Positions 14,099 through 19,616 of a stretch of 20,077 nucleotides of DNA are shown one piece after another. A program made the translations under genes and the position numbers. Under the pieces are notes generated by a model. The model did not search any database. It was not told where the DNA came from and saw nothing but the letters and a program-made list of their open reading frames with translations. Each line of letters opens with the position of its first letter. Within the stretch, counting starts at the first letter, position 1. The stretch comes from a virus, in IMG/VR virus record IMGVR_UViG_3300036770_005220, positions 1 to 20,077 of that record. One strand, written 5' to 3'.

Positions 14099-14659
14099 AT
14101 GAAAACCGTAGGCGATAGTTTGACTAAATTTGCAATCACTGGCGTCAAGCCAGGTGCGTTGACCCCAGATGATGCTTTTGAGACCGTCACAGACAAAAGC
14201 TTTGACGGCAAGTGGAAGGTAATAGTGTATTACCCCAAGGACTTTACTTTCGTATGTCCAACAGAAATCGTTGCCTATGATAAGTTGAACAAGGACTTTA
14301 CGGATCGCGATGCTGTGTTGTTGATTGGCTCAACCGACAACGAGTTCTGTAAGTTGGCATGGAAAAATGCCCATGAAGATCTCAAGAAAACCACTTGCTG
14401 GTTTTTTGCTGACACTGCCCGCGGCATTGCCTACGATGATGTCGATGGTCTAGTTGACCAACTCGGCATTTTCTATGCACCAGCCGGCGCAGCACTACGC
14501 GCAACTTTCATCGTTGATCCAGACAACGTTATCCAGCACGTCACTGTCAACAACTTGAATGTTGGTCGCAACGCCGACGAGACACTGCGTGTGCTCGATG
14601 CTCTTCAAACCGGCGAACTCTGTGCATGCAATCGCGCCATTGGCGGAGCGACGCTGTAA
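14099..14659 (+). CDS. ahpC: alkyl hydroperoxide reductase C (2-Cys peroxiredoxin)
   Basis: 186 aa, the usual AhpC length. It reduces hydrogen peroxide and organic hydroperoxides with a cysteine thiol. The peroxidatic site FTFVCPTEI gives C53; the C-terminal ELCACN (C175, C177) supplies resolving cysteines, and the double-Cys ending resembles the AhpC type that is paired with AhpD (mycobacterial type) rather than the AhpF-dependent enterobacterial one. Own promoter and a strong Shine-Dalgarno precede it, and its stop overlaps the ahpD start (TAATG). No truncation or lost residue is seen. Peroxiredoxins are rare in phages, so this is probably an acquired auxiliary metabolic gene. Confidence 0.95.
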   Translation: MKTVGDSLTKFAITGVKPGALTPDDAFETVTDKSFDGKWKVIVYYPKDFTFVCPTEIVAYDKLNKDFTDRDAVLLIGSTDNEFCKLAWKNAHEDLKKTTCWFFADTARGIAYDDVDGLVDQLGIFYAPAGAALRATFIVDPDNVIQHVTVNNLNVGRNADETLRVLDALQTGELCACNRAIGGATL

Positions 14660-15177
14660 TGACTGCCTGGGTTGATACCTTAAAGGACAACAGTATCCCT
14701 GACTATGCCAAGGATACGCGCTTGAACCTTGACGCAGTGATCAAACGCAGTTCATTGGCTCCGGAAGAAGCCGAAGCAGTGGCATTGGCCGCTGCTTTTG
14801 CCACAGGCAACACAAAACTGTGGACCTGGATCCAAAGCCAGATCGCCAACGACACTGAAGCAGAAGCCGCACTCACCGCTGCTGCATTGATGGCACAGAA
14901 CAACGTATGGTATCCCTATGTTGAAATGACCGGGGATGAACAGCTCCAGGGCTTGCCTGCACAGTTGCGCATGAATGCCATCAGCACGCACGGTGGTACC
15001 ACCCGAGAACGCTTCGAGGCCTACAGCCTTGCTGCCAGCATTGTTGGTAAATGCCATTTCTGTGTGAAAGCACACTACGACGGACTCAAGAAAATGGGCT
15101 ACACAGTAGAACAGCTTCGTGACATTGGTCGTATCGCTGCTGTGATCACATCGGTTAGTCGAATAGTTGAAAATTAA
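14659..15177 (+). CDS. ahpD: AhpD-like alkylhydroperoxidase/carboxymuconolactone decarboxylase family
   Basis: 172 aa from ATG 14659, coupled by TAATG to ahpC; an upstream in-frame start at 14626 would lie inside ahpC. The signature CHFCVKAH gives the redox pair C132/C135 and H139 of the AhpD fold, followed by the typical helix YTVEQLRDIGRIAAVI. In known systems AhpD passes electrons from lipoamide to AhpC and is itself a weak peroxidase. Gene order and coupling show the two proteins work together here. The electron source in this host is unknown; the phage glutaredoxin upstream is an alternative but this is speculation. Confidence 0.92.
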   Translation: MTAWVDTLKDNSIPDYAKDTRLNLDAVIKRSSLAPEEAEAVALAAAFATGNTKLWTWIQSQIANDTEAEAALTAAALMAQNNVWYPYVEMTGDEQLQGLPAQLRMNAISTHGGTTRERFEAYSLAASIVGKCHFCVKAHYDGLKKMGYTVEQLRDIGRIAAVITSVSRIVEN

Positions 15178-15895: not shown

Positions 15896-15923
15896 TTGAC
15901 ATTTGCAACACATAGTGTATAAT
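15896..15923 (+). promoter_or_regulatory. consensus sigma70 promoter of the tRNA array
   Basis: Perfect TTGACA (15896-15901), 16-nt spacer, perfect TATAAT (15918-15923); the strongest promoter in the window. The start near 15930 leads through a 130-nt structured leader into tRNA-Thr. Confidence 0.88.
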
Positions 15924-15929
15924 ACGTGA

Positions 15930-16060
15930 CCAGTGCTAGAGCGGAACGTGGCTGCGCAGAGCACTTTAATATCTGCAAACGGGCGGACAGGAAACATGAA
16001 AGGGATGGCGCAAACTTCCCTGGTAAGACTCCTGGGCAGGGCTTGACCCTGTCATGGTAT
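15930..16060 (+). ncRNA. structured leader RNA before the tRNA array
   Basis: The 130 nt between the promoter and tRNA-Thr hold no gene but several hairpins: AGTGCT (15932-15937) with AGCACT (15960-15965); an alternative GCAGA (15956-15960) with TCTGC (15972-15976); AGGGA with TCCCT near 15990-16022; and CAGGG (16037-16041) with CCCTG (16047-16051). It could be a leader removed by tRNA processing or a small RNA in its own right. It lacks tRNA features and I do not recognise a known RNA class. Confidence 0.5.
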
Positions 16061-16135
16061 GCCCCGGTAGCACAACGGTAGTGCAACTGATTTGTAATCA
16101 GTAGGTTGGGAGTTCGAATCTCTTCTGGGGCACCA
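16061..16135 (+). tRNA. tRNA-Thr(TGT)
   Basis: Acceptor GCCCCGG pairs with CTGGGGC; anticodon loop TTTGTAA (anticodon 16093-16095); T-loop TTCGAAT; encoded ACCA. Reads ACA. Its final CCA is the first part of an 18-nt inverted repeat that continues into the following RNA element. Confidence 0.93.
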
Positions 16136-16259
16136 TATTGAAGCACACTCGCCATTGGTCGTCGGCCTTGAGCGGTTGGCAAACCGGGACCGCACGACGA
16201 AGCAGCAATAGCCAGCGCGGTGGAAACGCCCATGGTGGGCAGAGTGTGCTTCAATATGG
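16133..16259 (+). ncRNA. structured RNA element 1, closed by 18-bp stem, between tRNA genes
   Basis: CCATATTGAAGCACACTC (16133-16150) is perfectly complementary to 16242-16259, enclosing about 90 nt; the pairing continues GCC/GGC past a bulged A. Inside are TCGTCG/CGACGA with a nested GCGGT/ACCGC hairpin, and a small hairpin GCG (16215-16217) - loop CGGTGGAAA - CGC (16227-16229). That hairpin loop recurs in the elements at 17983-18142 and 19500-19604. No reading frame is plausible. The 5' arm starts with the CCA of tRNA-Thr, so folding would compete with, or mark, tRNA 3'-end processing. Confidence 0.65.
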
Positions 16260-16339
16260 TTAGAGTCGGGTGACATGTAGGCGTTCTCTAAAACGTCGAG
16301 GGTTGGGATTCCCGAGCCTGCAACACAGGCACCATATTG
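16252..16339 (+). other. tRNA-like remnant or alternative-pairing element ending in ACCA
   Basis: CAATATGG (16252-16259) can also pair with CCATATTG (16332-16339), giving a second closed domain. It contains GGCGTT/AACGTC (anticodon-arm-like, but a 6-nt loop), a GGG-TTGGGAT-TCCC T-arm-like hairpin, and GCCTG/CAGGC followed by ACCA. The last 12 nt (GGCACCATATTG, 16328-16339) repeat the end of tRNA-Thr plus its flank (16129-16140). I read it as a decayed or tRNA-mimicking copy; a proper cloverleaf cannot be drawn because the 3' acceptor strand pairs locally. Confidence 0.4.
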
Positions 16340-16360
16340 CCATTGATTAAATATTTTACC

Positions 16361-17545
16361 ATGATGATAAAGATTTACATGCCAAGTGAACACCAAACCC
16401 CAATCGGCTGGGACCGATACCAGAGTGTGATCGTGGATTGGGAACCACCTGGCGTTGCATGGAAATATGTATCTGATATCCAAGATGCTGATTGGATCAT
16501 GTGTGTGATTAAATGGTATGATCTAGAAAAACAAATCGCATGGTTCCGTGCCAGGATCAGGCCCGATCAATTCGTGATCTTCATCAATGTTTATCATTCA
16601 GAAGAACAGCTGGGCCAGGTGTTTGAATCCCGCGACTGGCAGGATAACATAGATTTTTTCCAGCAGCATCAGCATAGGATTTGTTACGTTGATTGCAATA
16701 GCTGTGTACGAAATCAATATCCGGATGTGATATATTACGATTTCCTTTGGGAAAGACAACTAGTGTATTTTACGGAATATGAAAAACATGATTTGTCACG
16801 CCGCATACACACGAGATTTTCTACTGCAGAAATGTTTGCTCTTGAAGATATTAGTAAAACACCCGTGGCTAAACACTACCTTGCTGCCATGCGAGTCTGG
16901 TCAGAACAAGACGCGCCCCGTGGTCATTGGTACTCCTATGAGTCTCGTTCTCGATTTCGAGAGCTACTGCGAAACATCTTGGACGCAGACAAAGGCTATG
17001 TCAGCGATCACAAAAAAGGCGTGTTTATCCAACCGCAAGAGTACAAGCATTATATCAAACGTGATCTCGAAAATCCACAAGGGTGGTTCGCAGGAGGATC
17101 TTGGTATCCGGCACACAATCGTTATTATCAAGACAGTTTTGTCAGCGTGTATGTGGAAACCATTACTTTTGGTCACAGCTACAAACTTATAACAGAAAAA
17201 ACTTATGATCCTTTGATCAAAGGCAACTTTATACTGCCCATGGGATATCAGGGCATGGTCCAGGACATACTGGATCGAGGGTTCGTCTTGCCAGATTGGT
17301 TAGATTACAGTTATGACCAATTGCCAGACGCATCACGATTTGATGCCTATCTTGATTCTGTGCGATCTTTGTTGAACATGCGCCAGCATCAGTTATTTGA
17401 ATTGTATTGCCGGGACAAATATATTTTAGAGCACAATAGATCTATATTCTTTTCTACACCGCGAGTGAGTTTGTTGAGTCTTATACAAAACAATTTCCAA
17501 AATCGCGGATGTCATAAACAACCGGACCCATCGTCTAACGGTTAG
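16361..17545 (+). CDS. phage protein with GT10/fucosyltransferase-like C-terminus
   Basis: 394 aa from ATG 16361; 16364 and 16379 are alternatives and none has a clear Shine-Dalgarno. TTAAATA (16347-16353) just upstream resembles a late promoter -10, which would leave almost no leader. The C-terminal third reads FVSVYVETITFGH, then LITEKTYDPLIKGNFILPMG, then DRGFVLPDWLDYSYDQLPD, which follows the order of the donor-site block of GT10 alpha-1,3-fucosyltransferases (xTEKxYxPxxxGxxPI, then GFxxxxxxxDxSYD). The N-terminal two-thirds are aromatic and Asp-rich and not recognised. It may be a glycosyltransferase acting on host or virion glycans. The last 22 nt, including the stop, lie inside tRNA-Glu. 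Confidence 0.65.
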   Translation: MMIKIYMPSEHQTPIGWDRYQSVIVDWEPPGVAWKYVSDIQDADWIMCVIKWYDLEKQIAWFRARIRPDQFVIFINVYHSEEQLGQVFESRDWQDNIDFFQQHQHRICYVDCNSCVRNQYPDVIYYDFLWERQLVYFTEYEKHDLSRRIHTRFSTAEMFALEDISKTPVAKHYLAAMRVWSEQDAPRGHWYSYESRSRFRELLRNILDADKGYVSDHKKGVFIQPQEYKHYIKRDLENPQGWFAGGSWYPAHNRYYQDSFVSVYVETITFGHSYKLITEKTYDPLIKGNFILPMGYQGMVQDILDRGFVLPDWLDYSYDQLPDASRFDAYLDSVRSLLNMRQHQLFELYCRDKYILEHNRSIFFSTPRVSLLSLIQNNFQNRGCHKQPDPSSNG

Positions 17546-17598: not shown

Positions 17599-17603
17599 AT
17601 TAT

Positions 17604-17730
17604 GTGCGTTTCGTCTAAACAACGGACAAGACAGGGGGCCACATAAGTCTACAGTGGAAACACAACACTGAAAAGTGCGGTAGCGGTGGAATAACCTCTG
17701 AATGCGGGTTCGAATCCCGTAACGCACACC
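17604..17730 (+). other. interrupted tRNA-like gene with about 50-nt insert in the anticodon arm
   Basis: GTGCGTT (17604-17610) pairs perfectly with AACGCAC (17721-17727); a D-arm (GTCT 17613-17616 / AGAC 17629-17632) and a perfect T-arm (GCGGG-TTCGAAT-CCCGT, 17704-17720) are in the right places. The anticodon stem can be AGGGG (17633-17637) with CCTCT (17695-17699), but the loop is 57 nt instead of 7. The insert has CCAC/GTGG and a CACT-GAAA-AGTG tetraloop hairpin. Position 33 would not be U, so no anticodon can be assigned. The 3' end is ACCG, without full CCA, unlike every other tRNA here. Either a tRNA with a small intron or a tRNA-like RNA. Confidence 0.6.
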
Positions 17731-17751
17731 GTTTTTGTATTCTTGGGGTAA

Positions 17752-17893: not shown

Positions 17894-17967
17894 TGAGGCG
17901 TCGTCTAACGGCAGGACAGCAGGTTTTGATCCTGCTTATCGTGGTTCGAATCCATGCGCCTCAGCCA
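17894..17967 (+). tRNA. tRNA-Gln(TTG)
   Basis: Acceptor TGAGGCG with CGCCTCA; anticodon stem GCAGG/CCTGC around TTTTGAT (anticodon TTG); T-loop TTCGAAT; discriminator G; encoded CCA. Reads CAA. Confidence 0.93.
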
Positions 17968-17982
17968 ACTTGGTGACCTGCA

Positions 17983-18142
17983 GGCCGGCCTGACGGGTTC
18001 ATCCTATCAGTGCAAGAGCTTTTCCGTTTTGGTAGCACTGATTGACACATGAGGTAGAACGGAATAGGTCATGCTGTCGGGGGGTATGACTGACAACAAT
18101 CCAGTAGCGGGAGAACTCGTGAACGATAGCCCCGGCCTTTTT
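17983..18142 (+). ncRNA. structured RNA element 2 with H-type pseudoknot, between tRNA-Gln and tRNA-His
   Basis: About 160 nt without a gene. GGCCGG (17983-17988) can close with CCGGCC (18132-18137), directly followed by T5. Stem ATCAGTGC (18006-18013) / GCACTGAT (18035-18042) is perfect, and TTCCGTT in its loop (18022-18028) is perfectly complementary to AACGGAA (18058-18064), a classic pseudoknot. GTCAT (18068-18072)/ATGAC (18086-18090) encloses a G6 run (18079-18084) that could pair with CCCC (18130-18133). A hairpin AGT-AGCGGGAGA-ACT (18103-18117) shares its 9-nt loop pattern with the other two elements. I know no named class that fits. Confidence 0.7.
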
Positions 18143-18144
18143 AC

Positions 18145-18221
18145 GTGACCGTTGTCAAGTGGCCTAAGACCCCGGGTTGTGATCCCGGTATTCGTTGGTT
18201 CGAATCCAACCGGTCACCCCA
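18145..18221 (+). tRNA. tRNA-His(GTG)
   Basis: Acceptor GTGACCG with CGGTCAC; anticodon stem CCGGG/CCCGG around TTGTGAT (anticodon GTG); T-loop TTCGAAT; C73 and encoded CCA. The base before G1 is C (18144), so the G-1 normally encoded in bacterial tRNA-His is missing. Confidence 0.9.
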
Positions 18222-18959: not shown

Positions 18960-19196
18960 ATGGAATCTTTAAACAAACTATTCACATCTGTGAGCGATTT
19001 CCTGGGCCACATCACCCACTTGGGTGTCAAGCTCATCGCCGTGGGTGTGGTGCTGCAGATACTTTTTGGGGCTGCAGTGCCCTTCCTAGGACTGGATGTC
19101 GTGGGTGCCATCACATCATTTGTGGCAGCCCTAGGCGACAAAGGTCTGGTGGGATTGGTAGCACTAGCAGTGCTGTACTGGGCCTTTAAGAAGTAA
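18960..19196 (+). CDS. small two-helix membrane protein, holin-like by topology only
   Basis: 78 aa, well placed behind AGGAA (18951-18955). Two hydrophobic stretches are visible: about 20-42 (VKLIAVGVVLQILFGAAVPF) and about 59-75 (GLVGLVALAVLYWAF), joined by an amphipathic DVVGAITSFVAALGDK linker, and it ends in a basic KK. There is no signal-peptide cleavage site. Size and topology would fit a class II holin, but similar small membrane proteins of unknown role are frequent in marine T4-like phages and no endolysin gene lies nearby. A strong terminator follows 25 nt after the stop. Confidence 0.75.
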   Translation: MESLNKLFTSVSDFLGHITHLGVKLIAVGVVLQILFGAAVPFLGLDVVGAITSFVAALGDKGLVGLVALAVLYWAFKK

Positions 19197-19494: not shown

Positions 19495-19499
19495 ATTTT

Positions 19500-19604
19500 G
19501 CTTGTGTGCCGCTGGTGCTGGCATCGCGAACCAGTGGCTGGAAAACTGCCCAAATCTGTCATGACTTTGGTCAGAGACGTGTGGAAGTGCAGAGGCACAC
19601 AAGC
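19500..19604 (+). ncRNA. structured RNA element 3, closed by 11-bp stem, between tRNA-Cys and tRNA-Asn
   Basis: GCTTGTGTGCC (19500-19510) is perfectly complementary to GGCACACAAGC (19594-19604), enclosing 83 nt. Inside are CTGGT/ACCAG, a hairpin CAGT-GGCTGGAAA-ACTG (19532-19548) and TGAC-TTTG-GTCA with outer GTC/GAC. The hairpin loop GGCTGGAAA and the flanking CCAG/GCCCA match the element at 16133-16259, as does the opening GCCnnTGGT. There is no reading frame and no tRNA feature. Confidence 0.65.
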
Positions 19605-19616
19605 ATCCTGAATTGA

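Follow-up and report, generated by a model that had tools for sequence, protein, structure and literature searches.

The window analysed here, a stretch of 20,077 bases from a virus record, encodes a ribonucleotide reductase, a peptide deformylase, AhpC- and AhpD-like proteins and an HNH endonuclease, and it also carries a tRNA array. Ordinary spacers within this array measure 5-9 nt and most of its tRNAs have nothing more between them; the gap between tRNA-Gln and tRNA-His, which measures 177 nt, holds the element that is the subject of this report (Table 1). Elsewhere in the window the AhpC-like and AhpD-like genes lie adjacent to each other (14099-15177) in what is a phage genome. Relatives of the AhpD-like protein number in the hundreds in IMG/VR and are absent from the cultured-phage collection. 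Several related phages carry near the AhpD-like gene a tRNA with a CTA anticodon (called as tRNA-Pyl), which is possibly an amber suppressor, and related phages (L005, L008, L014, L015, L322 and others) possess tmRNA genes of the permuted type, ANDEVYALAA being one of the tags that they encode.

The first-pass annotation of the window had drawn attention to an 8-bp hairpin, in which ATCAGTGC pairs with GCACTGAT, and to the perfect complementarity between its loop strand TTCCGTT and a downstream heptamer AACGGAA; both features are indeed present in the sequence. Taken by itself the window provides weak evidence for an RNA structure, because 42 of 1500 dinucleotide shuffles of this 177-nt gap also contain a hairpin of at least 8 bp whose loop has a complementary 7-mer no more than 60 nt away, and because the minimum free energy of the window copy is ordinary (z -0.37 relative to shuffles). 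An RNA transcribed from the minus strand was considered and rejected: it has a z of 0.18, the neighbouring tRNAs are all on the plus strand, and the G-U pairs that are kept suit the plus strand.

Table 1. Features of the element in the window and its homologs in other phage contigs
Feature	Position	Strand	Remarks
tRNA-Gln (TTG)	17894..17967	+	immediately upstream of the element; ARAGORN and Rfam; tRNA-Gln also precedes the element in L325, L326 and L327
Whole structured RNA	17968..18138	+	from 1 nt past the tRNA-Gln CCA to the last strand of pseudoknot 2
5' hairpin H0	17972..18003	+	13 pairs, two bulges; 1/65 cells unpaired
Pseudoknot 1, stem A (8 bp)	18006..18042 (18006-18013 with 18035-18042)	+	paired in 5/5
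Pseudoknot 1, loop strand TTCCGTT	18022..18028	+	invariant in 5/5; partner 18058-18064
Pseudoknot 1, downstream strand AACGGAA	18058..18064	+	invariant in 5/5
Pseudoknot 2, stem E (8 bp)	18068..18090 (18068-18075 with 18083-18090)	+	loop 18076-18082, GTCGGGG, 7 nt
Window-private 15-nt insert AGCGGGAGAACTCGT	18105..18119	+	small hairpin, part of the long pseudoknot 2 loop; ends alignment-dependent
Pseudoknot 2, downstream strand CCCCGGC	18130..18136	+	pairs with the entire loop 18076-18082
tRNA-His (GTG)	18145..18221	+	downstream of the element; neighbour not kept in homologs
Homolog L318	10952-11107		between tRNA-Asn and tRNA-Ala; nhmmer E 9.5e-16
Homolog L325	1501-1655		directly behind tRNA-Gln; covariance model R2
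Homolog L326	1508-1662	-	directly behind tRNA-Gln; covariance model R2
Homolog L327	1501-1655		directly behind tRNA-Gln; covariance model R2

Four homologs were recovered in other phage contigs, which come from four different metagenome samples and together with the window give five main copies. L318 was reached by means of a pattern derived from a neighbouring conserved tRNA-like RNA (window 17600-17733), and L325, L326 and L327 through relatives of the small membrane protein encoded at 18960-19193, the full records being searched with covariance model R2 (E-values 7e-33 to 8e-31). This model was run against about 180 records and a further model, R3, against about 145, and in neither set was the element detected outside these phages. 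Searches that started from the protein at 16337-17542 in IMG/VR, from a long exact pattern, from the AhpD-linked loci and their records (blast/nhmmer) and from the pattern GCACTGATTGACACATGA yielded no homologs, and a loop-strand pattern gave 29 matches, of which none adjoined a tRNA or was recognised by the model. A pattern search of GTDB and blastn against cultured phages and plasmids likewise returned no match to the element. Rfam 15 has no match to it at gathering score and none at E<=10 inside the target, nor any in L318, and L325 shows just two minus-strand matches to Rfam that fall far below threshold.

All five copies are preceded by a tRNA, tRNA-Gln in four and tRNA-Asn in one, and conservation sets in 1 nt past its CCA. 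The next gene downstream differs, being tRNA-His in the window and tRNA-Ala in L318, each beyond a short AT-rich spacer, with no tRNA directly following in the others. The four homologs lack the 15-nt insert of the window, and each is about 15 nt shorter at that place. No open reading frame is conserved across the homologs. A possible AUG with a Shine-Dalgarno-like GAGGT in loop 1, seen in L318 and L325, was rejected as a kept reading frame, since the window lacks it and L326 and L327 run into a stop at once. The 98 columns at the 5' end of the alignment are 78-98% identical, and the half that contains pseudoknot 2 is only 45-61% identical between lineages and retains its pairing; as read from the alignment, this combination of a well-kept 5' half and a diverged but still paired 3' half is a signature of selection on structure. 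Homology, the absence of coding potential and the compensatory changes described below together indicate that the element is a previously uncatalogued structured RNA.

With the four homologs at hand, the comparative signal for an RNA structure is far beyond chance. In a MAFFT alignment made without regard to structure (A7, into which the window was entered without its private insert), 99.4% of cells are paired under the proposed model, as against 34-43% when the strands are slid by 1-3 columns. The covariation score of this alignment is 0.267 versus 0.140 in shuffles, none of 500 shuffles scoring as high, and the number of pairs changed on both sides is 6 versus 2.5. Unguided folding of the same alignment with RNAalifold recovers the hairpins H0 and E. 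That the RNA is real follows from the observation that its relatives alter the letters yet preserve the pairings, and the comparison of homologous contigs for compensatory changes, which had been proposed on the basis of the window, disclosed them in H0, in stem A, in stem E and in the loop helix of pseudoknot 2. The fold supported by these comparisons consists of the 5' hairpin H0 followed by two H-type pseudoknots in tandem, the first of them probable. H0, with a folding energy of -16.0 kcal/mol in the window, has three pairs with two-sided changes across the homologs (GC/AU/GU; AU/UA; GU/GC/AU). A potential further helix, CTATC (18004-18008) with GATAG (18125-18129), is invariant except for one wobble; it crosses pseudoknot 2 and overlaps stem A.

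Pseudoknot 2 emerges as an H-type pseudoknot proven, at the level of sequence comparison, by covariation. Six of the eight pairs of stem E are changed on both sides and none of the 40 cells in the five sequences is unpaired, and in the helix formed by its loop all seven pairs are changed on both sides, with 2 of 35 cells unpaired. The loop and its partner read GTCGGGG/CCCCGGC in the window, GCGTGGG/CCCACGC in L318 and TAGTAAC/GTTACTA in L325, and L326 and L327 have one mismatch each. When the downstream stretch was shuffled 20000 times, no shuffle gave full pairing of the loop in three sequences at once. The register of the loop helix in L325-L327 was set by hand for the count of seven out of seven pairs, because MAFFT places this helix one column off in those sequences. 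The same helix had been anticipated in the first-pass annotation as a possible second contact between a G-run and a C-run, and it is now the best supported helix of all.

The conservation of pseudoknot 1 is of a different kind. TTCCGTT and AACGGAA are kept in all four homologs; a loss of their complementarity, which the first-pass annotation had named as a refutation, was thus looked for and did not occur. Stem A has a single compensatory pair, the loop-closing one (C-G / U-A / U-G). As both heptamers and most of the letters flanking them are invariant in the five main copies, the helix between them has no covariation of its own, and a nested hairpin that can be built from the same heptamers is equally conserved; the topology as drawn is likely. 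Kissing between the loops of stem A and of an alternative hairpin B (18044-18052/18069-18078) was also considered: the arrangement looks attractive in the window, where 10 of 5000 shuffles match it, yet it occurs about once per 14 kb across 3 Mb of real sequence. Hairpin B shows one compensated pair, to be set against six of eight in stem E, which shares its 3' strand with B, and the kissing model was dropped.

Right behind the target homolog in L325 (1656-1778), and at the same place in L326 and L327, we observed a diverged second module in tandem. Its strands TCTGTT/AACAGA represent a C-G to U-A exchange relative to pseudoknot 1, one changed pair that speaks for that helix, and are preceded by a different 5-bp stem (GTTGT/ACAAC), the homology of this first half to the pseudoknot 1 region being weak. 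The part corresponding to pseudoknot 2 is intact, with strands (GCGTGGG/CCCACGC) identical to those of L318, and the module is matched by R3 in two records (E 9e-8 and 3e-4). In phages with the second module, the number of successive pseudoknots may accordingly be three to four.

Several explanations for this element can be weighed against the pattern of conservation. It had initially been pictured as an attenuator or switch controlling read-through into tRNA-His, in which the G-run/C-run contact would compete with a closing stem GGCCGG/CCGGCC placed before a run of five T residues. All three sequence motifs do occur in the window copy, the T-run next to tRNA-His, and the second module of L325 likewise ends in CCTTTTT. 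However, the closing stem is disfavoured already in the window, at a cost of about 11 kcal/mol, because its GGCCGG strand belongs to the stable 5' hairpin, and its complement is gone in all four homologs. The T-run, too, is absent from the four homologs, a terminator scan made no call at the site of the element, and T5 is also found within the ordinary His-Ile spacer of the array. With the competing stem lost, the T-run not conserved and the next gene variable, the switch is unsupported and we consider it very unlikely. It is more improbable still that the element acts as DNA, for instance as a recombination or homing site or as a cassette of tRNA arrays, with the RNA fold as a by-product. Different tRNAs do precede the element in different phages and a GTGACC direct repeat flanks it in the window, but this repeat, which was examined as an insertion footprint and rejected, is not kept in L318, and many of the conserved pairs are G-U, which pairs in RNA and not in DNA. 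Least credible of all is a neutral spacer with chance complementarity; the shuffle count and the ordinary folding energy of the window copy are within reach of such a spacer, but the compensatory changes in the homologs already contradict it.

Two further explanations take the constant position behind a tRNA as their starting point. The element could be a cis-acting part of the tRNA precursor that protects the 3' end of the upstream tRNA or positions it for cleavage; it would be degraded afterwards and have no function as a free RNA. Every copy indeed begins 1 nt past the CCA of the tRNA in front of it, and two different tRNAs take this place; on the other hand, most tRNAs of the same array have spacers of 5-9 nt and no such element, and a conserved stretch of 165 nt is more than a signal for end processing needs, and we judge this explanation unlikely. 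Alternatively, the double pseudoknot located right at a tRNA 3' end could be a new self-cleaving ribozyme that frees this end, similar in action to the theta ribozymes, which are HDV-like, pseudoknotted and used by phages directly at tRNA 3' ends (PMC10879173), but with a different fold. Against this, no Rfam ribozyme matches the target, L325 or L318 at E<=10, and a loose HDV/theta descriptor of our own yields no match that begins 20 nt or less from the tRNA end in any of the five copies. The tRNA upstream of the element furthermore encodes its CCA, which is true of only 4.5% of theta-associated tRNAs (PMC10879173). A ribozyme of this kind appears rather improbable. A bolder proposal, to which we assign a small chance of being correct, is that the element is an active device and one of many uncatalogued RNAs of these arrays: it would be either a new class of ribozyme that matures phage tRNA 3' ends, or a decoy for the ribosome or for a host defence nuclease that attacks tRNAs.

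On balance we lean towards reading the element as a gene for a stable non-coding RNA of about 165 nt, which would be co-transcribed with the tRNAs, freed by tRNA processing and active in trans. A small RNA had been among the earlier suggestions for this locus, and it is compatible with the conservation; the stability and the action in trans are suggested by the position and by other RNAs of phage tRNA islands. The element would be an RNA gene of related uncultivated tailed phages, lying in the tRNA array immediately behind a tRNA and transcribed within the polycistronic tRNA precursor. Its 5' end would be generated when the 3' end of the upstream tRNA is processed; the opposite end would come from RNase P cleavage at the next tRNA, in the case of the window and L318, or from a nearby end of transcription. 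Excision by the enzymes that mature tRNAs is the simplest reading, given that the element starts 1 nt past the CCA whichever of the two tRNAs precedes it, and that in the window and L318 an AT-rich spacer leads to the next tRNA. The freed RNA would then persist during infection and bind a host or phage protein or ribonucleoprotein, an idea already entertained for other RNAs of phage tRNA islands. This preferred reading also draws, by analogy, on a position like that of the T4 RNAs C and D and on the presence of other structured RNAs with homologs in the same arrays.

We observed several such RNAs, and the element is best read as one member of a set of uncatalogued structured RNAs in these arrays. 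At 15896-16060 of the window a perfect sigma-70 promoter (TTGACA-16-TATAAT) is followed by a conserved structured leader before tRNA-Thr, with homologs in L025, L028, L064 and ten further loci. A stretch at 16132-16260 is closed by a stem of about 19 bp, ACCATATTGAAGCACACTC/GAGTGTGCTTCAATATGGT, which starts in the CCA of tRNA-Thr (z -4.7). It exemplifies a family, ACCATATTGAARCACA.../...TGTGYTTCAATATGGT, whose stem begins in the CCA of a tRNA; IMG/VR contains at least 120 such stretches. Of 147 arms, 136 have their partner within 260 nt, mostly near tRNAs. This stem recurs in many tRNA arrays of uncultivated phages, with compensating changes, a very variable interior and several copies per array, and for the family represented at 16132-16260 neither cultured phages nor Rfam gave a match beyond chance. 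The tRNA-like RNA at 17600-17733 has normal acceptor, D and T arms and an insert of about 55 nt in the anticodon loop that forms two adjacent hairpins with GAAA (GNRA) loops; full homologs, among which the acceptor stem shows a compensatory change, occur in L255, L318, L320, L321 and L322, and L214, L267 and L319 have only the hairpin core, the stems of which covary. Between tRNA-Cys and tRNA-Asn lies an element of 107 nt (19499-19605) with a 12-bp closing stem (z -3.1), for which no homolog was found. Downstream of the target homologs in L325 (1826-2001) and L318 (11188-11365) there is another conserved non-coding RNA (GAGAGTCCGAAAGCGA...), which is also present in L326, L227, L285, L296, L300 and L308 and absent from the window. 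The finding points to the tRNA arrays of uncultivated phages as a rich source of RNA structures not known hitherto.

A succession of H-type pseudoknots is also a feature of tmRNA, which contains several in a row. The element shares the tandem arrangement but differs from tmRNA in having neither a tRNA-like domain nor a tag frame, and no tmRNA call or family match falls in 17968-18144. Theta ribozymes, in turn, are built around a nested double pseudoknot (P1-P2-P3) with the catalytic C in J4/2 and cleave no more than 5 nt from the tRNA 3' end, whereas the two H-type pseudoknots of the element stand in tandem. A parallel in location and size is offered by phage T4, in which rnaC (139 nt, "species 1") and rnaD (119 nt, "species 2") are annotated as small stable RNAs and, like the element, are non-coding RNAs of similar size inside a phage tRNA cluster, where they adjoin tRNAs and a homing-endonuclease gene. 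rnaC ends with a T-arm-like hairpin that the element lacks, and a search of the T4 tRNA region (L088) with model R1 gave no match, there being no detectable similarity to RNA C or D. GOLLD and ROOL are structured RNAs of phages and prophages that often occur near tRNA islands and are of unknown function (PMC12286853); they measure about 660 to more than 800 nt as against about 165 nt for the element, which is placed between two tRNAs and is without an Rfam match. As an RNA family proven by covariation and found neither in Rfam nor among 50,697 cultured-phage records, the element joins T4 RNAs C and D, GOLLD and ROOL among the few RNAs of phage tRNA islands that have no assigned function, and since the exact helices to mutate are now defined, it makes the role of non-tRNA RNAs in phage tRNA arrays testable.
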